Shown: positions 17,921-36,297 of the stretch, piece after piece
Numbering within the stretch: position 1 is the first letter of the stretch
How the letters are laid out: every line of letters starts with the position of its first letter
IMG/VR virus record: IMGVR_UViG_3300019124_000104
Coordinates: 1-38,156 of that record
Direction: 5' to 3' (one strand)
DNA: 38,156 nucleotides
Source: a virus
Notes under the pieces: model-generated
Told to the model about the DNA's origin: nothing
Databases searched by the model: none
Seen by the model: only the letters and a program-made list of their open reading frames with translations
Program-made: the position numbers and the translations under genes

Positions 17921-19175
17921 CGTCATCTCCAGAGGTATTCTGTTGACCGGCGGGAGGCGCCAGATCGTCCCGCCTGCGGAGGTTCGACAGGGCGCGCACC
18001 TCATCGACATGCATCCAGGGCTGGTGCCCACCGGAGCCCAGCGCCCTGGCGAAGAACTCGGCCTGATCCTTGAGGCTTCCGCGCAGCAATGCGCCTTCAT
18101 TGAACTTGGGCTTGAGCAGCTCCTGCTCGGCCTCAGTGAGCAGCGTGCGGCGGATGGCCTGCTCCCAGGCGACGAACCACGGGGCCAGCGCGTAGCGGAC
18201 GAAGCCGATACCCAATTGCTCGATGCCGGTGCCCCAGCTCGTGTCGTCCATGCCCAGCAGCGGGCGGGGCACGCCGAAGATGCGGCCAATCTCCTCGATC
18301 TGGAACCTGCGGGTCTCCAGGTGCTGGCTGTCCGCCGCCGTGGGCGCGAACGGCTTTGGCTCCAAGCCCTCTTCGGTCAAAATCCATTTGTGGGCGTTCT
18401 CCGCGCCCGAGTACCGCTCCTCCAGGCTCGCCTTGAGGCGGTCGTAGGCTTCCTGGCTCAAGGTGTTGGGATGCACCATGACGCCGCCCACGATCAGGCC
18501 GTTCTTGAACAGCCGCGCGGCGGCGACTTCGGTCTGGATCGCGAGCCCGATGGCTTCCGCTGCCTGCTTCACCAGCGAGAGCCCGTTAATGCCATCCATG
18601 GAGAGCCCGCGCAGGTGAAACACGTCCTGGGGCCGTAGCCGCACCCTGCCGCCCCCGGGCCGTTCGTACTCGTAGGACACCGTCCAGTCAGGGTTCTGCA
18701 CCGGCGTCACCCGCTTGGGGTCCATCGGCACGAGTGCGGTGATGCGCTCTCCGGTTCGCAGCACGCGGGCATATCCATCGCCGCGCACGAGTGCATTGAG
18801 CTGCAGGTGTGAGCGGAAATCGAAGGCGCTCTGCCAAGCGTTCGGCTGCGCGTACAAGATCTTGTAGAGCGGGTGGTCGTCGGCCTTATCGCTCTCGAAA
18901 TCATCGCCGCGCAGGAGGTGCAGCGGCAGCATTCCGATGGCATAGGAGATCAGCGATACGCACCGGAACACGGTCGTGTTGCGCATCGCGCTCTCGACGC
19001 TCACCTCCGCGCCCGAATGCGTCGAGTAGCCCGCCCGGAGAAATTCCGCGAGGCGCGGGTCATCGAGTCCGGTGAATGCCATCATTTCAGCGTGCGGGCG
19101 GATAGCCAGCGACGATGCAACCTGCGGAGCCGGTTCGTCGCGCCGCCGCAAAAAATCGAAAAGGCCCATACTCAC
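17907..19175 (-). CDS. Portal protein, HK97 family
   Basis: 422 residues. Signature segments are SVESAMRNTTVFRCVSLISY, then AIGMLPLHLL, then HPLYKILYAQPNAWQSAFDF, RGDGYARVLR, and IEEIGRIFGVPRPLLGMDD with GIEQLGIGFVRYALAPW, matching Phage_portal HK97-type. Twelve copies form the DNA channel at the vertex. It probably starts at the GTG 19173-19175, sharing GTGA with the terminase stop (19172-19174) and so translationally coupled. The ATG two codons later is an equally possible start. The end overlaps the protease gene. Confidence 0.92.
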   Translation of the reverse strand: MSMGLFDFLRRRDEPAPQVASSLAIRPHAEMMAFTGLDDPRLAEFLRAGYSTHSGAEVSVESAMRNTTVFRCVSLISYAIGMLPLHLLRGDDFESDKADDHPLYKILYAQPNAWQSAFDFRSHLQLNALVRGDGYARVLRTGERITALVPMDPKRVTPVQNPDWTVSYEYERPGGGRVRLRPQDVFHLRGLSMDGINGLSLVKQAAEAIGLAIQTEVAAARLFKNGLIVGGVMVHPNTLSQEAYDRLKASLEERYSGAENAHKWILTEEGLEPKPFAPTAADSQHLETRRFQIEEIGRIFGVPRPLLGMDDTSWGTGIEQLGIGFVRYALAPWFVAWEQAIRRTLLTEAEQELLKPKFNEGALLRGSLKDQAEFFARALGSGGHQPWMHVDEVRALSNLRRRDDLAPPAGQQNTSGDDDDVA

Positions 19176-20983
19176 ATTATCAGGATGCCGCGTGTTTCGT
19201 AGACGCTGCGGGCAGGCCCCGCCTCGTGTTTGAACGTCGCCGCGCCCACCGCCATGGCGAGCGCGACAATCGGGTCGATCCGGTTGGTGGCCTTCCGTTT
19301 CGAGAACCAGCGATTGTCGAACGGGTCTTTTTCGAGCACCGCTGACATTGCTGCAGAGATCAGCACCGGGCTGCGCTTGATGCGAATGCGGCCCTCAAGG
19401 ATGAGCGTTTCCAGCTCGTTTACGGAGCCCGGCATCCAGAGGCCCTGGGGCGGCTCCACACCGGCGCGCTTGGCGGCCTCGATGACTTCCTCTGGCGGCT
19501 TGGCCCGGCGCTTGCCGCCCTGCGGATGCTCGATGAAATCCACCTCCAGGCCGATCTCGTCGCACGCCTCCTCGAAACGCCGGAACGCATAACGGTCATA
19601 GGCGACCCAGGTGGTGCCGTATTCGTGCTCGATCTCGGCAAGGCGCGCGGCCATGTAATCGAAGCGCACCACCCGGCCCGGCGGCGCATTGAGCAAACCC
19701 TTGGCGGCCCAGACGTCGTAAGGAGCCTTGTCCCGCAGCGCCCGCTCCCGCATCGTGTCACGGGGCGTCCAGGCTTCCACCCAGGCGTCGAAGGTGGGCT
19801 TGCCCTCCTCGGTGATGCCGGTTTCCACCACGAACGCCATCGCGGCCAAGTCGGTGGTGGCCGAAAGGTCGATGCCCGCGCACAACCGCTTGCCGTTGTG
19901 GATGGCCGGATCGAAATCGGCCAGCACGCTTTCAAGCGCGGGGCGGCTCATCCAAGCGGTTTCGGCGTCCGTCCAGCAACAGAAGTGAAGGCGCAGGATA
20001 CCGTTCAACTTGCCCGGAATGGCCTTGGCTTGGCGCACCACCCCTGCCAGGTAGTCCTCGGTGATGGTGACGCCCAGCAGCGGGTTGGCCTTTTCCCAGC
20101 AGCCGGGATCTTCCAGCGGATCGTCGCCTTCATCGAGCGCGCAAACGTAGGAGAACGTGCTGTCGTCTTCGACATCGCCTGCGGCCACCCGCACCGCGTG
20201 CTCGTGCTCGTGCCAGCACACCGAATTGCGGTCAGTGCCTGAGTTCGTGATCATGAGGAGCAGCGGCTGGCGTCGCCACTTGAAGCCGCGCTCCAGCATT
20301 TCGATCACGTGGCCGTCTTTGTGCTCGTGGATCTCATCGCACAGCGCGCACGACGGCCTCGGCCCCGATTGACCCTCCTCGCTCGAGATGGGCCGAAAGA
20401 ACGAGCTGTCCTTGTACGTGAGGTTCCAGACCGGGTTGCCGCCATGCGCCTTCACCTTCTGGCGCAGTGCCTTCGATTGCTCCCGCATGGCGACCGCATC
20501 GCGGAAGAGCACCATGGCCTGATCTTTTTTCGACGCCGCCGCGTACACCTCCGCGCGGGCCTCTCCATCGGCTACGAGGCAATACATGCCGATCCCGGCG
20601 GCAAGCGGCGACTTGCCGTTGCCCTTGCCCTGCTCGATGTAGGCGCGGCGAAAGCGGCGCGTGCCATCAGCGCGCTTCCATCCGAACAGGCTCCCCACGA
20701 TGAAGGCTTGGCTCGGGTGCAGGTCAAAACGCACGCCTTCGAACTGCCCGCCCGCCAGCCGCAGCGTCGTGGGAAAGAACCGCAGCGCGCGGTCGGCGGC
20801 GGCGAGATCCCAGACCAGCCCGCGCCCCGGCCCCTCCTCCAGATCCCGGAGGTGGCGCTTGCAGGTGTCGCGCACATGCGGCCCGGCGACGATATCGCCT
20901 GCCACAACGGCCTCGGCATAGGCCGTCACCGGATCAGGTAAAGAATTCTTCGGCGGGGTCTTGGCTGTCCTGCGCTTCTGCAT
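19172..20983 (-). CDS. Terminase large subunit
   Basis: 603 residues from the ATG at 20981-20983; an extension to 21028 is possible. The ATPase domain has a Walker A-like QGKGNGKS (118-125) and Walker B PSCALCDEIHEH (Asp216-Glu217 acting as metal/catalytic acids). The nuclease domain begins at AGIDLSATTDLAA (Asp372) with later conserved AYDRYAFRRF and RIDPIVALAMAVG near the end. This is the TerL type paired with P27-like small terminases, as in HK97-type cos or headful phages. The start overlaps the small terminase gene by 50 nt. It powers DNA packaging and cuts concatemers. Confidence 0.92.
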   Translation of the reverse strand: MQKRRTAKTPPKNSLPDPVTAYAEAVVAGDIVAGPHVRDTCKRHLRDLEEGPGRGLVWDLAAADRALRFFPTTLRLAGGQFEGVRFDLHPSQAFIVGSLFGWKRADGTRRFRRAYIEQGKGNGKSPLAAGIGMYCLVADGEARAEVYAAASKKDQAMVLFRDAVAMREQSKALRQKVKAHGGNPVWNLTYKDSSFFRPISSEEGQSGPRPSCALCDEIHEHKDGHVIEMLERGFKWRRQPLLLMITNSGTDRNSVCWHEHEHAVRVAAGDVEDDSTFSYVCALDEGDDPLEDPGCWEKANPLLGVTITEDYLAGVVRQAKAIPGKLNGILRLHFCCWTDAETAWMSRPALESVLADFDPAIHNGKRLCAGIDLSATTDLAAMAFVVETGITEEGKPTFDAWVEAWTPRDTMRERALRDKAPYDVWAAKGLLNAPPGRVVRFDYMAARLAEIEHEYGTTWVAYDRYAFRRFEEACDEIGLEVDFIEHPQGGKRRAKPPEEVIEAAKRAGVEPPQGLWMPGSVNELETLILEGRIRIKRSPVLISAAMSAVLEKDPFDNRWFSKRKATNRIDPIVALAMAVGAATFKHEAGPARSVYETRGILIM

Positions 20984-21413
20984 GGATACGCGAGCGCGCC
21001 GATGGCGTGATGCCCAACTCGGCGGCATAGCGAACCATATCGGCGGCGGCCTTGTTGGCGATGCCGACGATGGGGTTCTGGATAGGGTTTCCGTTGGTGG
21101 TGCGGATCATTAGCCCGTGCGTGAGCTGGTCGCGCTGCGCCATCTCGGCCAGGGTTCTCTCGGCGGTGCGCCAGCGCTCGTAGGCTTGGCAATAGGCGGC
21201 AAGCGTGGCGCGGTCGAGCCGGGTCAGAATGCCGGTCTGGTACATTTCGTGCGCCACCCGCTCCCACTCCTGGCGGGCGGCTTCGCCCAGGTGGTCGGGC
21301 GGTTCGGGCAGCGCCGGGGCCACCTTCGGCTCGCGCCGGTTGATCGCCCGTTTGCCGGGGTTGCCCTGCACCAGCTTGAGGTGCGTGGGCTTCGGTTTCG
21401 GTCCTCTAATCAT
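20934..21413 (-). CDS. Terminase small subunit, P27 family
   Basis: 159 residues. The N-terminus MIRGPKPKPTHLKLVQGNPG with KRAINRREPKV is the signature of P27-like small terminases (G-x-x-P-x-P-x-x-x-x-x-x-G-N-P-G). The C-terminal half (NPIQNPIVGIANKAAADMVR and LGITPSARSRIHA) is also conserved. It recognises the packaging site. It is the first gene of the late minus-strand operon. Upstream lies the divergent regulatory region with TTTAGC/GCTAAA repeats. Confidence 0.92.
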   Translation of the reverse strand: MIRGPKPKPTHLKLVQGNPGKRAINRREPKVAPALPEPPDHLGEAARQEWERVAHEMYQTGILTRLDRATLAAYCQAYERWRTAERTLAEMAQRDQLTHGLMIRTTNGNPIQNPIVGIANKAAADMVRYAAELGITPSARSRIHAEAQDSQDPAEEFFT

Positions 21414-25597: not shown

Positions 25598-25913
25598 GCG
25601 CGAGCCGCCGGAACTCCACCGGGACACCCAGCGCCCTCGAATGATTGATGCCCTCCCACATGCCCGGCGTGATCCCGAGATCCCCGTAGACCACCGTCGC
25701 AGCCGCGAAGCGCCTCCAGGCAAAGCCCGCCGCGATGCCTAGCCGGCGATCATCGGGCACTTCGTCGCGCAGGATGCCCGGCTGGGTGTAGAGCAGGTGC
25801 GAAGCGATGGGAGCCTCCCCCATGAGCAGGCAATCCCGCACGCAGGCCCGCGCGTAGGCCACGTTCGTCTCGATATCGCCTGCGTAGGGGCTCTCCAAAA
25901 CGACCAGTCTCAT
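25593..25913 (-). CDS. DUF7768 family protein (nucleoside 2-deoxyribosyltransferase-like)
   Basis: 106 residues. MRLVVLESPYAGDIETNVAY is a Rossmann-like first strand and loop; ACVRDCLLMGEAPIASHLLY, then FAAATVVYGDLGITPGMWEG, follow. This matches the DUF7768 family, related to nucleoside 2-deoxyribosyltransferase-like folds and common in phages. The predicted ligand is a nucleotide, but activity is unproven. It overlaps the methyltransferase gene by 4 nt (25910-25913), suggesting a linked role in phage nucleotide or DNA modification. Confidence 0.8.
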   Translation of the reverse strand: MRLVVLESPYAGDIETNVAYARACVRDCLLMGEAPIASHLLYTQPGILRDEVPDDRRLGIAAGFAWRRFAAATVVYGDLGITPGMWEGINHSRALGVPVEFRRLAQ

Positions 25914-27181
25914 TCCGCCGCCTGCGGCTGGCGCTTCGCGAGCAGCTCGGTGTAGCTCTCGCCGGTGGCCTCAAGCCGGGCGTCCTGGCCGGTGAAGTCC
26001 TGCCACCGCTTGATTGCCACGTCCACATAAGCCGGGTGCAGCTCCAGGGCTTGGCAGGCGCGGCCCTCCATCTCGCAGGCGATGATGGTGGTGCCGGAAC
26101 CGCAGAACGGCTCGTAGACGGCCTGCCCTGGCGACGAGTTGTTCACGATGGGCCTGCGCATACACTCGACCGGCTTTTGCGTGGAATGGCCGGTTTCCGA
26201 CTTCTGCGGCTTCGGGATCTCCCACAGCGTGGATTGCTTGCGGTCGCCCGCCCAATGCGCCGTCCGGTTCTTTCGCACCGCGTACCAGCAGGGCTCGTGC
26301 TGCCAGTGGTAATGGCCGCGACTCACCGCGATGTGGTTCTTGGCCCAGACGATCTGCGCGCGGATCTCGAAATCGGCGGCGGCAAGGCCCTCGGCCACCG
26401 ATGCAGCCTTCACGGCGGCGTGCCAGACATAGGCCACGTCGCCGGGGAACAGCGCCCATGCCTCGCGCCAATCGGCCTTGTTGTCGTTCAACACCTTGCC
26501 GACCGCGCGCCCGCCCGGCGGGCCTTTGCCGGTGCCCGCCTGCTCGACGTCGTTGCGCCAGTTGGCGTCGTATTCCACCCCATAGGGCGGATCGGTCACC
26601 ATGAGGTGCGGCAGCACGCCAGCCAGCGCCTTCTCGACCGCATCGGCATCGGTGCAATCACCGCACACCAGCCGGTGCCGCCCCAGCAGCCACACATCGC
26701 CCAGCTCGGTGACCGGATGCACCGGCGTGTCGGGCACATCGTCGGGATCGGTGAGCCCTCGGTTCGGGGCCATCGAGAGCGCCCGCAGCTCCTGATCCGA
26801 GAAGCCCATCAGCGGCAAATCGAACCCCAGCTCCGCGAGATCGGCCACTTCCAGGCGCAATAGCTCCTTATCCCAGCCCGCGTTCTCGGCCAGCTTGTTA
26901 TCTGCGAGCACATAGGCGCGCTTCTGGGCATCGGTCCAACCGCGCGCCACCATCACCGGCACCTCGGGCAGCTCCAGGCGCTGCGCGGCGAGTACGCGGC
27001 CATGACCCGCGATGATAGTGCCGTCCTCATCCACGAGAACCGGGTTCGTCCATCCCCACTCGCGAATGCTGGCGGCGATTTGCGCAACCTGCTCGTCGCT
27101 ATGCGTGCGGGCGTTGCGGGCATATGGCGTCAGGCGCGAGAGCGGCCAACGCTCCACCTTGTCGGCGGGCCAATCGCTCAT
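25910..27181 (-). CDS. ParB-domain-fused DNA methyltransferase (probable N6-adenine, beta class)
   Basis: 423 residues. A ParB/Srx-like N-terminal domain (about 15-70; ARNARTHSDEQVAQIAASIR, then EWGWTNPVLVDEDGTIIAGH) is fused to a methyltransferase. The latter has catalytic TDPPYG (DPPY at 197-200), GHSTQKP at 331-337, and the SAM-binding FCGSGTT at 359-365 near the C-terminus, an order (motif IV before I) that fits the beta class. No restriction enzyme lies nearby, so it is likely an orphan phage methyltransferase protecting DNA from host restriction or altering gene control. ATGA overlaps on both sides tie it to DUF7768 and to a 32-aa membrane protein. Confidence 0.88.
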   Translation of the reverse strand: MSDWPADKVERWPLSRLTPYARNARTHSDEQVAQIAASIREWGWTNPVLVDEDGTIIAGHGRVLAAQRLELPEVPVMVARGWTDAQKRAYVLADNKLAENAGWDKELLRLEVADLAELGFDLPLMGFSDQELRALSMAPNRGLTDPDDVPDTPVHPVTELGDVWLLGRHRLVCGDCTDADAVEKALAGVLPHLMVTDPPYGVEYDANWRNDVEQAGTGKGPPGGRAVGKVLNDNKADWREAWALFPGDVAYVWHAAVKAASVAEGLAAADFEIRAQIVWAKNHIAVSRGHYHWQHEPCWYAVRKNRTAHWAGDRKQSTLWEIPKPQKSETGHSTQKPVECMRRPIVNNSSPGQAVYEPFCGSGTTIIACEMEGRACQALELHPAYVDVAIKRWQDFTGQDARLEATGESYTELLAKRQPQAAE

Positions 27182-27277: not shown

Positions 27278-27610
27278 CTAAACCCCGGTCGGAAATTCGC
27301 GGTTTTGCGTTTTGCGGGGGGGCCGCCGGTGTACGTTCGACGGCTCCAAACTTTCGACGCCCCCGGCCTTCGCCTCCGTATCGAGATCGACGCCTGCTCG
27401 CTGGATCAGCTTGCGGAGCGTGCGAATGTTGTGCGCCTCGACTTTGGTTTCTATCCAATGACCCGAGAAGTTCCATGGCATGATGCCGTGCGAAACCAGC
27501 ACATCCAGGCACCCGTCGTCATCTGCAAGATCCGCTTCGCTGTCGGCAAGTACCTTTGCCACTTCCGCCAGCGTGTAACGGCGCTGCGGGAGATCAATTA
27601 CAGCGGCCAT
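27278..27610 (-). CDS. Phage protein of unknown function
   Basis: 110 residues. The first half (QRRYTLAEVAKVLADSEADL) looks like a small helix-turn-helix or MerR-like start, then GCLDVLVSHGIMPWNFSGHW and AHNIRTLRKLIQRAGVDLDT, followed by a Pro/Arg-rich tail (SNVHRRPPRKTQNREF). The start lies 13 nt inside the end of the HNH gene. It might bind DNA, but the HTH resemblance is weak and no family is recognised. Confidence 0.6.
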   Translation of the reverse strand: MAAVIDLPQRRYTLAEVAKVLADSEADLADDDGCLDVLVSHGIMPWNFSGHWIETKVEAHNIRTLRKLIQRAGVDLDTEAKAGGVESLEPSNVHRRPPRKTQNREFPTGV

Positions 27611-27870
27611 CCGTCCTCCCCTATTCCCCTTGTGGTATTGCGCTCGATGGCTTGTTTGGTGCCGTTATGGTGGGGTCCGCACAGGGCGTCCCAATTCGCT
27701 CGGTCCCAAAAAAGCCGGGGGTTTCCTTTGTGCGGCACCCGGTGGTCGACAACGGTGGCGGCGGCGAGGCGCCCTTCGCGCAGGCACATCACACACAGCG
27801 GATGGAGTTTCAGGAAGCGCTTGCGTTCCGCACGCCATCGGCGGCTGTTGTAGAACGGATGATTGCTCAC
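27598..27870 (-). CDS. HNH endonuclease
   Basis: 90 residues from the GTG at 27868-27870. MSNHPFYNSRRWRAERKRFL precedes the HNH core: PLCVMCLREG, VVDHRVPHKG and then LCGPHHNGTK. It has Cys-x2-Cys and C-x2-HH zinc ligands with the D-H catalytic pair. In HK97-type phages such a nuclease works with terminase in genome packaging and usually lies near TerS; here 6.2 kb separates them, filled by the methyltransferase genes and the plus-strand cassette. GTGA overlap joins it to the broken small gene upstream. Confidence 0.85.
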   Translation of the reverse strand: MSNHPFYNSRRWRAERKRFLKLHPLCVMCLREGRLAAATVVDHRVPHKGNPRLFWDRANWDALCGPHHNGTKQAIERNTTRGIGEDGWPL

Positions 27871-28030: not shown

Positions 28031-28948
28031 TTGGATCCCCTGACCCCAACCGATGCGGCGGGGAATCTGCAAGCCGATGTGCTGGGCCGCTTCCTCGAGC
28101 GCATCCAGGCGGCAGGGGCGGACTCCATTGGCCTGCTCGGCAGCACCGGCGGCTATGCCTACCTGACGCGGGAGGCACGCCAGCGTGCCGTGCGGGTGGC
28201 GGTGGAGTGCGTCGGTGGCAAGATCCCGATCATCGTCGGCGTGGGCGCGCTCCGAACCGACGAGGCCGAGACGCTCGCCCGGGACGCCAAAGCGGCAGGG
28301 GCTGACGGCCTGCTGCTCGCTCCCATGTCCTATACGCCCCTGACCGACGAGGAGGTCTTTCGGCACTTCGCCGCCGTGGCCGAGGCGGGCGGGCTGCCCC
28401 TGTGCATCTACAACAACCCGAGCACCACGAAATTCACCTTTAGCGATGACCTGATCGCCCGTCTGGCGAAGCTCCCGAACGTCGCGGCGGTGAAGATGCC
28501 TCTGCCTGCGAATGGTGACTTCAGCGGCGAGTTGGAGCGGCTGCGGGCGATCATCCCTGACGGGCTTGCCATTGGCTACAGTGGTGACTGGGGAGCAGCC
28601 GACGCCCTGCTGGCCGGGTGCGACGCTTGGTACAGCGTGGTTGCGGGCCTGCTGCCCGCTCCGGCTTTGGCTCTCACGCGAGCCGCGCAAGCTAGCAACC
28701 GTCCTGAGGTGCTACGCATCAACGCATTGTTCCAACCGCTGTGGGATCTGTTCAGGGCGTTCGGCAGCTTCCGCGTGATGTATGTGATGGCAGACCTTCT
28801 CGGTCTCGCCAGGATCGAGCCGCCGCGCCCGATCCTGCCGTTATCTCAGGAGACATACGGTCGGGTGGAAGAGGCCTTGGGACACTTGAAGAGTGTAACC
28901 AGCTCCACTCCACACAGGCTTATCAGAGATCCACGCTATGTTTCATAG
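28031..28948 (+). pseudogene. DapA/DHDPS-family aldolase, 5'-truncated
   Basis: The frame contains nearly a whole dihydrodipicolinate synthase family protein: GSTG (37-40, equivalent to the GTTGE pocket), the VGVGALRTDEAETLARDAKA core, Tyr127 in CIYNNP and the Schiff-base Lys155 in VAAVKMP. Intact relatives begin about 8 residues earlier with a Phe-x-Gly-(L/I)-x-x-(F/L)-P-L-T segment. Here the sequence enters at PLTPTDAAG with only TTG as a possible start and no ribosome-binding site. The C-terminal 18 residues (SVTSSTPHRLIRDPRYVS) extend past the usual end. I read it as a broken host gene at a recombination border; a TTG-started product is possible. Confidence 0.7.
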
Positions 28949-29762: not shown

Positions 29763-29954
29763 CTATGGAGGGCTGTTCGGGGGCTTGCCGCCCGCGTCAT
29801 TGCCAGGGCCGCCCTTGTCACCCTTGCCACTGTTGCCGGGTCCGCCGCCAACATTGCTGGGATTTGGGGGATCGGCATAGGCCACCGTGGACGCAACGAA
29901 CCCTGTCGCGAAAAACGCGACAATCAGGGCAGCAAAGAGCCTGATCTTGGTCAT
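29763..29954 (-). CDS. Small secreted Gly/Pro/Asn-rich protein
   Basis: 63 residues. MTKIRLFAALIVAFFATGFV then ASTVAYA is a clear signal peptide with cleavage after AYA. The mature 36 residues are low-complexity (NVGGGPGNSGKGDKGGPGND). Such short secreted peptides occur in Hyphomicrobiales chromosomes, and no function is known. CGGAGAAG lies before the ATG, and the leader contains a CACGGC/GCCGTG hairpin (29971-29988). Confidence 0.6.
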   Translation of the reverse strand: MTKIRLFAALIVAFFATGFVASTVAYADPPNPSNVGGGPGNSGKGDKGGPGNDAGGKPPNSPP

Positions 29955-30247: not shown

Positions 30248-30496
30248 TTACGCACCCCACGCCGAAAGCTGCCCCTCACCGAATGTTTGCTCTCCAGGGG
30301 CCGCGACACGATCAAGTTCTCGTCTGATCGCTTGCGCCGTCTTAGAATCGATGCCATCGAGCCGCTCAAGTTGGCCCGCGACAGCCCTGAGTTGGCCGAT
30401 TGTCTCGATGTTCTCTCGATGCAGCACGTCCCAGGCGGTTGAAGGCAGGCAGAGACCTTCAATTGGGCCTGCGCACGCTTCATAAGGGCGGGGCAT
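30248..30496 (-). CDS. Small protein with RpoA C-terminal-domain-like helices
   Basis: 82 residues from the ATG at 30494-30496 (AGGAG 7 nt upstream). LCLPSTAWDVLHRENIETIG followed by QLERLDGIDSKTAQAIRREL resembles the helix-hairpin-helix pattern of the RNA polymerase alpha-subunit C-terminal domain (L-x-L-S-x-R-A-x-N-x-L ... I-x-T-(I/V)-x-x-L ... G-x-K-(S/T)). That fold binds DNA and activators. A stand-alone copy could be a transcription modifier; the resemblance is by eye only. Confidence 0.55.
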   Translation of the reverse strand: MPRPYEACAGPIEGLCLPSTAWDVLHRENIETIGQLRAVAGQLERLDGIDSKTAQAIRRELDRVAAPGEQTFGEGQLSAWGA

Positions 30497-30502
30497 GGAC
30501 AA

Positions 30503-31303: not shown

Positions 31304-31344
31304 CGACGGGGACGAATTGGTCGCCCCGAAAGAGGCACACAGAA

Positions 31345-31548
31345 ATGACGAAGATTATCTCTCGCTTCCGCAAAGATCAGTCGGGCGCTACCGCTATCGA
31401 ATACGGCCTTATTGCTGGGCTTATCGCTGTCGTCATCATCGGGGCCGTGAGCACCGTTGGCGGCACCCTCAAGACGAAGTTCGAAGCCATCAGCGGCGGC
31501 TTGACAGGTACGACGAGCACTAGCACCGGTACTGGTTCCGACTCCTAA
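31345..31548 (+). CDS. flp: Flp family type IVb pilin
   Basis: 67 residues: MTKIISRFRKDQSGATAIEY followed by GLIAGLIAVVIIGAV. The prepilin signature is complete: cleavage after Gly14 by a TadV/CpaA peptidase leaves ATAIEY with Glu at +5 and Tyr at +6, then a hydrophobic helix. The Thr/Ser/Gly-rich C-terminus (TGTTSTSTGTGSDS) is exposed on the filament. AGAGG lies 9 nt before the ATG. No cpa/tad assembly genes are in the window, so it is an orphan copy. Its 3' region holds three structured RNA repeats and a strong terminator. Confidence 0.88.
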   Translation: MTKIISRFRKDQSGATAIEYGLIAGLIAVVIIGAVSTVGGTLKTKFEAISGGLTGTTSTSTGTGSDS

Positions 31549-31562
31549 TCAGCAAGAGTTCC

Positions 31563-31639
31563 CCTGGCAGATGGGTGGCGCATTCCCTGTGGCCTGATCT
31601 GCTCACTCGCGGCGGTCGAGTGTCGAACCATAAACCGCC
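31563..31639 (+). ncRNA. Structured RNA repeat, copy 1 of 3
   Basis: P1: GCAGAT (31567-31572) with ATCTGC (31597-31602). One base later the hairpin CACTCG (31604-31609)/CGAGTG (31617-31622). Its loop is C plus GGCGGT (31611-31616), which can pair with ACCGCC (31634-31639) after an 11-nt A-rich linker containing CGAACCA, making an H-type pseudoknot. Begins 15 nt after the flp stop codon. Confidence 0.65.
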
Positions 31640-31646
31640 GAAAACT

Positions 31647-31726
31647 CCTGGCAGACGAGTGGCCTCGTGTCCCTGTGCCAAGTCTACTCACTTGCCGGTG
31701 GGCAAGTGTACGAACCAAAACCCACC
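31647..31726 (+). ncRNA. Structured RNA repeat, copy 2 of 3 (covarying copy)
   Basis: P1: GCAGAC (31651-31656) with GTCTAC (31682-31687; one mismatch). Hairpin CACTTG (31689-31694)/CAAGTG (31703-31708). Loop GGTGGG (31697-31702) pairs with CCCACC (31721-31726). Both the hairpin stem and the pseudoknot differ from copies 1 and 3 by changes on both strands that keep pairing, which is the best evidence that the structure is selected. CGAACCA is again present in the linker. Confidence 0.7.
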
Positions 31727-31733
31727 ACCAGCT

Positions 31734-31808
31734 CCTGGCAGGCGAGCGGCTCGTCCCTGTGCCAAGTCTGCCCACTCGCGGCGGTCGAGTGTCGAACCAT
31801 AAACCGCC
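31734..31808 (+). ncRNA. Structured RNA repeat, copy 3 of 3
   Basis: P1: GCAGGC (31738-31743) with GTCTGC (31766-31771; one G-U). Hairpin CACTCG (31773-31778)/CGAGTG (31786-31791). Loop GGCGGT (31780-31785) pairs with ACCGCC (31803-31808). Shares CCTGGCAG at the 5' end and CCCTGTGCCAAGTCT with copy 2. Followed 6 nt later by an intrinsic terminator. Confidence 0.65.
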
Positions 31809-31813
31809 AAACT

Positions 31814-31844
31814 AAAGGGCCGCTGGAGACAGCGGCCCTTTTTT
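31814..31844 (+). terminator. Strong intrinsic terminator after the RNA repeats
   Basis: AAAGGGCCGCTG (31814-31825), GAGA loop, CAGCGGCCC (31830-31838) followed by six T (31839-31844). The U-run is on the plus strand, fixing the direction of the flp-repeat transcript. Confidence 0.9.
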
Positions 31845-33944: not shown

Positions 33945-34883
33945 CTATGCGGCCTGCCTAGTAGGGCGCGGGATGTTGAACTCGGCCAGAATGTGCGCCG
34001 GAACGCGGGTGCGCGGGCTGTCGGGCGGCTGGCTCTTCGATTGGATGCACGGCGGCCAATGGCGGCTGCGCATCCAATCCGCGACGAAACCGCGCCAGAT
34101 GTGGTCGGGCAACTCCTGCGCTGCCGGTGCTGCCGCCTGTGGCAGAACAACCGGATCGTTCAGTTTGGAGAGGATGTGCGGTTGAAAAACCTTCCAGCTT
34201 CGCAACGCGCGCCCGGCGGCGTGCGTTCGCGCCGCCTCTTCCCGCACCACCGGAAGGACGTGCTTTTCGAGGTCGGCTCCGCGCTCCAGGCATTCGCGGA
34301 TAGGGGTCAGGTCGTTTGCGTTGCGCAACGGCCAGTCGATGCCGGGCGGCAACTGCGCCAGAAGTTTGGCTTGCAGATCGAGATCCGAAAGCCCGCCCGC
34401 GTGCCCCGGCCCCAGGCCGGTGGCCTCGCGCCCATAGCGTAGCGATCTGGCTTCTGGCTTCTGGTTTCTGGTATCAGGTTCAGCGTGGGTTGCCTGGATA
34501 AAACCTGCTGGGTTTCGAGCGCCGTTGATTTCATTGAGCCTTTGTGCAGGTTTCCTTCCGCCGCGCGTTCCATTTTTGCGCGAGTTTTCAGCGAGTTTTT
34601 CCCGACTTTTCACCTCTTTTTCGGCGCGCGAGTTGGTCAAACGCCCGTGCGGGTCCAGGTGCAGCTTGCCGTACTCAATGAGCCGCTCGACCACCTTCTG
34701 CACCGATGTAGGGCGCAAGCCGCAGCGCAGGCCGAGGCGTTTGTAATCGCACGCCACCGGCCCGCCCCGGTCGTAAATCATCATCAGCACGACGGTGTAG
34801 ACGCCGATTTCCTGGGCATCGAGGCCCACTACTCCCGAAAGGAAGTCTGACGGATAGCATTTGAAATACGGCACGTTACTCAT
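33945..34883 (-). CDS. Replication protein with DUF1376 N-terminus (O-like)
   Basis: 312 residues. PYFKCYPSDFLSGVVGLDAQ, then EIGVYTVVLMMIYDRGGPVA, then LRCGLRPTSVQKVVERLIEY is the DUF1376 winged-helix-like region found in phage replication initiators. A charged linker (NSRAEKEVKSREKLAENSRK) leads to a C-terminal part with IDWPLRNANDLTPIRECLER and LPDHIWRGFVADWMRSRHWP. It is positioned directly downstream of DnaB, as phage helicase loaders/initiators are, so it probably recruits the helicase to the phage origin. AAGGAC lies 8 nt before the ATG. Confidence 0.82.
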   Translation of the reverse strand: MSNVPYFKCYPSDFLSGVVGLDAQEIGVYTVVLMMIYDRGGPVACDYKRLGLRCGLRPTSVQKVVERLIEYGKLHLDPHGRLTNSRAEKEVKSREKLAENSRKNGTRGGRKPAQRLNEINGARNPAGFIQATHAEPDTRNQKPEARSLRYGREATGLGPGHAGGLSDLDLQAKLLAQLPPGIDWPLRNANDLTPIRECLERGADLEKHVLPVVREEAARTHAAGRALRSWKVFQPHILSKLNDPVVLPQAAAPAAQELPDHIWRGFVADWMRSRHWPPCIQSKSQPPDSPRTRVPAHILAEFNIPRPTRQAA

Positions 34884-34893
34884 TGGCTTGTCC

Positions 34894-36297
34894 TTATTGG
34901 CTCAACTCGGACACGATGTTCGCGCCGATGTCGCAGAAACATTGAACAGTTCCCGTTGGCCCCTGGCGCTGCTTGAGCACGATTACCTCCAGCTCGTGTT
35001 TCATTCCGGCGAGCAGCGCGTGCTCTTCCGGCGTGAGATCCGGCTTGTTTTCGAGGTAATAGGCGGCGCGGTAGAGCCCGATCACCACGTCGGCGTCCTG
35101 CTCGATGGAGCCCGAGTCGCGCAGGTCCATGAGTTGCGGGCGCTTGTCGTTGCGGCCCTCGACGCCCCGGTTCAATTGACAGAGCGCAACGACCGCCACC
35201 TCCAGCTCCTTCGCCATGACCTTGAGCGCCGCCGTGATCTCGGAGATTTCCTGCACGCGGTTGCCCGCGTAGCGTTTGGAGGCCCGCACGAGGCCGATGT
35301 GGTCGACCGCCACCATGGAGAGCTTCTGGCCGTGCCGCTCCGCGCGGGCTTTGAGCTGGCGCACGCGCGCCGCGATCTGGCTTACCGTGAGCCCCGGCTC
35401 CTGCTCGATCCACAACGGCAGGTGGTCGACCATGTCCTGCGCTTCGACCAGCCGCTGAAGCTGTTCGGCGGAAAGGTGTGCGCCCAACCGGATATCGGTG
35501 TAGGGCAACGGCTCCAGATGCGGCGCATAGGCGGCGCTCGCCACCGCGCGCTCCCCCAACTGCTGGGCGGTCATCTCGAGCGAGATGAAAGCGCAGCCCT
35601 CGCCGCTCCTTGCCACCGCCATCGCGGTGTGGAGCGCCACCGTCGTCTTGCCCATGCCGGGCCTGCCCGCCAGAATGATGAGGTCGCCTGGGTGAGCGCC
35701 CAGCGTCATCTTGTCGAGACTTGGCAATCCAAGCGTGGTGCCACGCATGTTCTCGCCGTTGCGGGCGCGTTCGACCCGCGCCACCACCGCACGCACCGCC
35801 TCGCCCACCGTCACCCGGCGCAAGGATTGCGGGCGCGTGGCGGTGGCGATTTGGTCGAGAGACTCGATCATCTCCGAGGCATAGCGCGACGGGTTGACGA
35901 CCATGCCGACCGTCATGGCCGCGACCGCATCCTGAGACACGGCGAGAAGCCTGCGCATTTGCGCCGCGTTGCGGATGGCCTTCGCATAGTCGCGCGCATT
36001 CATCACCGTGGTCGCTTCAGCGTGCAGGCGGGCGAGATATTGGCCCACCGTCACGCCGCCCAGATCCCGATCACCGATCACGAGCCGCACGAGGTGCGCA
36101 TCGATGACTTCGCCCTGGTCGCGGCGCTCGCACATGGCGGCGAAAATCAGCCGGTGCAGTTCCTCGTGAAAATCCTCGGGCTCCACGAAATCGCGCGCCG
36201 CATCAAGCGCCTCGGCGTTGTGCAGGATTGCGCCAAGCAACGCCTGCTCACTATCGATGGTGTGCGGGATTTCAGGCCGGTCGGCATGGTAGTTCAC
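34894..36297 (-). CDS. Replicative DNA helicase, DnaB family
   Basis: 467 residues. The N-terminal domain (PHTIDSEQALLGAILHNAEA) and the RecA-like C-terminal domain are both present. Walker A GRPGMGKT is at 211-218, then FISLEMTAQQ, Walker B MVAVDHIGLV, LCQLNRGVEG with the arginine finger region, and LRDSGSIEQDADVVIGL. This unwinds DNA at the phage replication fork as a hexamer. The 5' end overlaps the upstream small gene by 26 nt. No primase gene is seen, so host DnaG is probably used. Confidence 0.92.
   Translation of the reverse strand: MNYHADRPEIPHTIDSEQALLGAILHNAEALDAARDFVEPEDFHEELHRLIFAAMCERRDQGEVIDAHLVRLVIGDRDLGGVTVGQYLARLHAEATTVMNARDYAKAIRNAAQMRRLLAVSQDAVAAMTVGMVVNPSRYASEMIESLDQIATATRPQSLRRVTVGEAVRAVVARVERARNGENMRGTTLGLPSLDKMTLGAHPGDLIILAGRPGMGKTTVALHTAMAVARSGEGCAFISLEMTAQQLGERAVASAAYAPHLEPLPYTDIRLGAHLSAEQLQRLVEAQDMVDHLPLWIEQEPGLTVSQIAARVRQLKARAERHGQKLSMVAVDHIGLVRASKRYAGNRVQEISEITAALKVMAKELEVAVVALCQLNRGVEGRNDKRPQLMDLRDSGSIEQDADVVIGLYRAAYYLENKPDLTPEEHALLAGMKHELEVIVLKQRQGPTGTVQCFCDIGANIVSELSQ

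Follow-up and report, generated by a model that had tools for sequence, protein, structure and literature searches.

Gene content and setting of the repeat array

The window (the whole stretch of DNA analyzed) is the virus record IMGVR_UViG_3300019124_000104 at its full length of 38,156 bases, in which the tailed-phage genes lie nearly all on the minus strand. Among these are the genes for the terminase large subunit (19172-21028), a ParB-like/DNA methyltransferase (25910-27181) and an HNH endonuclease (27598-27870), together with the replication genes for a DUF1376 primosomal protein (33945-34883) and a DnaB-like helicase (34894-36297). The region that separates the HNH gene from the replication genes, at about 28.0-32.0 kb, has a GC content of 0.50-0.60, versus 0.61-0.69 in the flanks, and holds non-phage genes: a DHDPS-family gene (plus strand), small open reading frames (ORFs) on the minus strand, and an Flp pilin gene (plus strand) with a tandem array of three repeat units behind it.

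The pilin gene (31345..31548, plus strand) encodes an Flp-type pilin of 67 aa (Pfam Flp_Fap PF04964, E 6e-22) and is presumed to head the array transcript. Its stop codon TAA lies at 31546-31548 and the repeats start 15 bases past it, which places them in the 3' UTR and not, as the initial annotation had it, inside the 3' region of the pilin gene itself. That annotation was right in calling a co-directional Flp pilin, a six-T terminator on the same strand, and no gene downstream on that strand; the phage context had escaped it. The array ends at a strong intrinsic terminator (31814..31844, plus strand; AAAGGGCCGCTG-GAGA-CAGCGGCCCTTT), which has a stem of 12 bp (-24.1 kcal/mol) and a run of six T at 31839-31844. 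Beyond it the ORF list gives no plausible plus-strand gene, only ORFs antisense to phage genes. From pilin stop codon to terminator the distance is about 266 nt, versus 13-141 nt at the other viral-contig Flp pilin genes for which a terminator was recognized; the UTR is therefore specifically enlarged by the array.

The pilin and its array look like acquired cargo in a phage genome because of the lower GC content and because Flp pilin is absent from 32 related phage records, many of them fragments. Host DNA picked up by the virus record may instead account for the 28-32 kb stretch; the flanking gene order, with replication genes on one side and the HNH and terminase genes on the other, favors cargo, and the 32 related records, many of them fragmentary, lack a pilin. 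Flp pilin genes also occur in several IMG/VR contigs (L130, L134-L147), some of them similar around the pilin, which suggests that Flp pilins are recurrent phage or prophage cargo.

The same region contains other genes of some interest. The DHDPS-family gene (28031-28948, plus strand; Pfam DHDPS E 2.5e-40, under the dapA equivalog cut-off) is embedded within the phage genome and is possibly metabolic cargo. An 84-aa ORF (30248-30502, minus strand) has a weak likeness to the RNA polymerase alpha C-terminal domain or helix-hairpin-helix (Pfam E 0.018; PglW E 1.8e-4), and may encode a small phage protein modulating transcription. A 63-aa ORF (29763-29954, minus strand), with a signal-peptide-like start and a tail rich in Gly, Pro and Asn, likely encodes a small secreted peptide.

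Architecture of the three units

The array consists of three tandem units of 77, 80 and 75 nt on the plus strand, each starting CCTGGCAG, at 31563, 31647 and 31734 (periods 84 and 87; TRF score 244, 78% matches). Each unit is predicted to form a 7-bp stem-loop (P1) that directly abuts, with zero bases between, an H-type pseudoknot composed of S1 (6 bp), L1 (1-2 nt), S2 (6 bp) and L3 (11-12 nt), L2 being absent; loop lengths of this kind fit the classical H-type pseudoknot. In unit 1 (31563..31639) P1 is formed by 31566-31572/31597-31603, S1 by 31604-31609/31617-31622 and S2 by 31611-31616/31634-31639, with L1 at 31610 and L3 at 31623-31633 (TCGAACCATAA). Unit 2 (31647..31726) has P1 at 31650-31656/31682-31688, with one C-A mismatch, S1 at 31689-31694/31703-31708, L1 at 31695-31696, S2 at 31697-31702/31721-31726 and L3 at 31709-31720 (TACGAACCAAAA). 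In unit 3 (31734..31808) the corresponding positions are 31737-31743/31766-31772 (P1), 31773-31778/31786-31791 (S1), 31779 (L1), 31780-31785/31803-31808 (S2) and 31792-31802 (L3).

The inner GGC/GCC pairing of P1 is invariant and its loop contains UCCCUGU, while the L3 linker (11, 12 and 11 nt in units 1-3) carries CGAACCA in all copies, plus a run of A. Both single-stranded motifs, CGAACCA and UCCCUGU, are invariant among the three copies. The L3 sequence UCGAACC is also complementary to the T-arm motif GGUUCGA, a likeness that we treat as chance; a tRNA or tRNA-like identity was rejected, as ARAGORN finds no tRNA and the other strand cannot form a T-stem. Between the units of this three-unit array no conserved A-rich cleavage junction was seen. 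Unit 3 is a mosaic, its 3' half being identical to that of unit 1 (36/36) and its 5' half closer to unit 2 (33/42), a pattern that probably arose by recombination or gene conversion among the copies.

Most of this anatomy had been read by the initial annotation, and alignment and TRF bear it out: the common start and the periods, the 6-bp hairpin whose loop pairs downstream, and the linker of 11-12 nt with CGAACCA, found in all three copies. P1 needed correction. It had been described as 6 bp, set one base before the hairpin, and has in fact 7 bp with the outer G-U/G-C pair included, and no base between; its variation is mostly pair-preserving, as described.

Evidence for a shared pseudoknotted fold

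It is in unit 2 that S1 and S2 show their compensatory changes. S1 reads CACTCG/CGAGTG in units 1 and 3 and CACTTG/CAAGTG in unit 2, and S2 reads GGCGGT/ACCGCC in units 1 and 3 and GGTGGG/CCCACC in unit 2, so that both strands of hairpin and pseudoknot differ, exactly as first noted. In the three-copy alignment 65 of the 66 cells pair (98.5%), the sole exception being the C-A mismatch in P1 of unit 2, and there are four double compensatory changes (one in P1, one in S1 and two in S2).

Because the structure had first been picked by eye, a blind helix search was made over ungapped columns, with helices of at least 6 pairs and pseudoknots allowed; it recovered P1, S1 and S2 and no other helix, for a total of 19 pairs, 4 of them doubly changed. 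In 1000 alignments with shuffled columns neither figure was ever reached, and the covariation proposed in the initial annotation stood up statistically. With the same substitutions placed randomly in a Monte Carlo simulation, the probability of at least four doubles was about 7e-6 and that of at most one broken pair about 7e-4. Pairing is preserved by 10 of the 11 substitutions in paired columns, which argues that selection on structure acted after duplication; the gapped columns (7/7) are all unpaired and lie in loops. Minimum free energy (MFE) folding was only slightly better than for shuffled sequences (z -0.5 to -1.6), as is expected for a pseudoknotted fold, since MFE folding cannot show the pseudoknot. 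Taken together, there is strong sequence evidence that the three units would share the same pseudoknotted fold.

The G-U pairs in P1 indicate that the plus strand is the RNA; the minus strand was rejected because these pairs would there turn into C-A. A protein-coding repeat was also considered, since both periods are divisible by three and an ORF of 75 aa spans the array, but was rejected: the indels (alignment columns 29-30, 51 and 66) shift the frame and all fall in loops.

Search for relatives

The array resembles no known family, as had been surmised from its sequence: Rfam 15 gave no match over the whole window at the gathering threshold, and at relaxed E-values only matches far under the gathering scores, mostly over the terminator and none to a ribozyme or riboswitch. 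Pattern scans of IMG/VR and of 84,980 genomes (one pattern for the genomes) returned only chance matches as judged by nhmmer; the tandem CCTGGCAG pattern used on IMG/VR was far too loose, and nhmmer confirmed none of its loci. In blastn searches with pilin plus array, phages gave no match and, among the matches listed for plasmids, only the pilin part was covered. The element is missing at other Flp pilin genes carried by viral contigs, and scans for DnaB and for phrog_9306-type genes yielded no useful relatives.

A covariance model (R1), built from the three copies as the initial annotation had proposed, was run over about 1,590 proteobacterial genomes, some drawn twice: 299 Pseudomonadota, members of the genus, family, order and class to which a genome with a 73% identical terminase belongs, and a second family. 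The model scores its own copies at 87-103 bits and the best other match, which falls in apparently coding, repetitive sequence, at 30 bits. The top hits inspected, at 22-30 bits, were rejected as homologues: L291 sits in sequence of that repetitive kind, L292 and L293 run antisense to ordinary genes, and L243/L245 appear, by reading of the translation, to be antisense to mraY. Thus no homologue of the array was found in IMG/VR, the 84,980 genomes, plasmids, phages or the proteobacterial set, an absence that is not proof, as the window's own genome and its near kin may be missing from the collections and the genome search relies on a loose first look. The array is known as one locus with three copies.

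Comparison with type III antitoxins and other RNAs

Closest in anatomy are the RNA antitoxins of type III toxin-antitoxin systems (ToxI, antiQ, CptI, TenpI), along with the pseudo-ToxI repeats of phage PhiTE; the initial annotation had not drawn the type III comparison. Type III antitoxins consist of tandem H-type pseudoknots followed by a Rho-independent terminator and are found on mobile elements (PMC5086642). Like them, the array is predicted to form tandem pseudoknotted units, with the terminator (31814-31844) directly after. The known units, however, measure 34-50 nt (PMC5086642, PMC12373285) versus 75-80 nt here (period 84-87), about twice as long, and those of the array carry an additional 7-bp stem-loop. 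In the type III layout a toxin ORF comes after the terminator, whereas the array has none there and has an unrelated ORF, the Flp pilin, upstream in presumably the same transcript. No ToxN/CptN/TenpN-type toxin gene lies on the plus strand past the terminator, and nearby ORFs have no toxin domain; ToxN_toxin PF13958 had no match in the window, in a search that was weak, as the control genomes also gave nothing. Nor does the array match any RNA antitoxin family in Rfam. We do not claim type III membership, because the toxin gene is absent and the unit length falls outside 34-50 nt.

In phage PhiTE, pseudo-ToxI repeats act as decoys without a toxin gene (PMC3475682), and in being phage-borne, repeated, pseudoknotted and without a toxin gene they are like the array. 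They resemble the 36-nt ToxI of the host, whereas here no host antitoxin with a matching sequence turned up and the unit has twice that length. The abiF RNA motif, or RCd22 (RF03085), likewise recurs as a structured repeat, in an RNA that a phage encodes and that neutralizes a protein (PMC12373285); it shares the principle with the decoy proposed below and differs in the motif, being made of 33-35-nt hairpins in two copies upstream of abiF, and the array has no sequence match to RF03085. More distantly, the 3' UTRs of plant tobamoviruses contain a triple pseudoknot domain, three consecutive pseudoknots tied to RNA stability and translation. These are eukaryotic RNA viruses and the sizes are other, so the likeness is one of layout only.

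Possible functions

The initial annotation put forward an sRNA array, protein sponge, ribozyme or ligand-binding element as putative functions. Our best guess, put first in the ranking though held tentatively, is that the array may be an RNA encoded by the phage as a protein-binding decoy or an orphan antitoxin. The first place is owed to its type III-like pseudoknot-terminator organization and to the precedents of PhiTE pseudo-ToxI and AbiF/RCd22. The 3' UTR of the plus-strand transcript would fold into three independent units, in each of which the P1 stem-loop is stacked upon the H-type pseudoknot, and these would act in trans as protein-binding RNAs, in the manner of an orphan type III antitoxin or a decoy. 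Made by the (pro)phage as cargo, the array would sequester an RNA-binding protein, e.g. an antiviral endoribonuclease. We infer that it would be transcribed with or from the pilin mRNA, that its units would be released and find a protein target, and that the role would be one of anti-defense or addiction. Retention of three copies, with pair-preserving divergence and partial homogenization, argues for selection on several copies, and the invariant CGAACCA and UCCCUGU are as would be expected of a binding surface. Counted against a decoy or antitoxin are the lack of an adjacent toxin-like gene, the long unit, the upstream ORF, the missing A-rich junction and the lack of a homologue.

A bolder version, which we regard as rather doubtful, is a new class of phage RNA: tandem units of stem-loop plus H-type pseudoknot, twice the type III size, acting in trans and on their own as decoy or antitoxin to a host defense protein and carried together with a pilin gene as a cargo module. 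Only a few structured RNAs encoded by phages are known to serve in counter-defense or as antitoxins. If true, a toxin-less pseudoknot array would offer a direct handle on a host RNA-binding defense protein, with the array as bait.

The main rival, nearly as likely as a decoy and likewise only tentative, is a stability or processing element in the 3' UTR of the pilin mRNA, whose stacked pseudoknots would block exoribonucleases and preserve the mRNA of an abundant structural protein, or would yield a stable 3'-UTR-derived sRNA. With the pilin stop codon before it and the only terminator after it, the array is most simply the pilin 3' UTR, and its unusual length among the Flp loci compared above speaks for such a role. 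However, those other loci do without it, so that pilins have no general need of the element; a terminator hairpin is usually enough by itself, and a simple block has no need for conserved single-stranded motifs. Even so, on this plainer reading the array would be an unusual case in bacteria of a 3' end guarded by several stacked pseudoknots.

It is unlikely that the three copies are self-cleaving ribozymes or ligand-binding RNAs akin to riboswitches. Compact pseudoknotted units of about 80 nt with invariant single-stranded motifs are similar in size to small ribozymes and aptamers, but the Rfam comparison matched no ribozyme or riboswitch even at relaxed E-values, and the array stands 3' of the pilin, before a terminator and with no co-directional gene beyond, rather than in the 5' leader of a gene to be controlled. 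Slightly less probable is a relic, an RNA of host or phage origin that was duplicated and is now decaying without function: a singleton locus with no homologue found would suit it, whereas the preserved pairing and the improbability of the double changes under random placement do not. Least probable is an element acting as DNA, such as iterons or dyad binding sites belonging to a replication origin next to the 32-36 kb replication module, for although three direct repeats adjoin the replication genes, a duplex DNA site has no need of co-varying crossing helices, the G-U pairs in P1 suit plus-strand RNA only, and the indels are confined to loops.

Finally, the UCCCUGU of the P1 loop is complementary over 7 bases, one of the pairs being G-U, to ACGGGGA at 31307-31313, just upstream of the pilin start; this pairing could be chance, and would let the 3' UTR contact the 5' leader.
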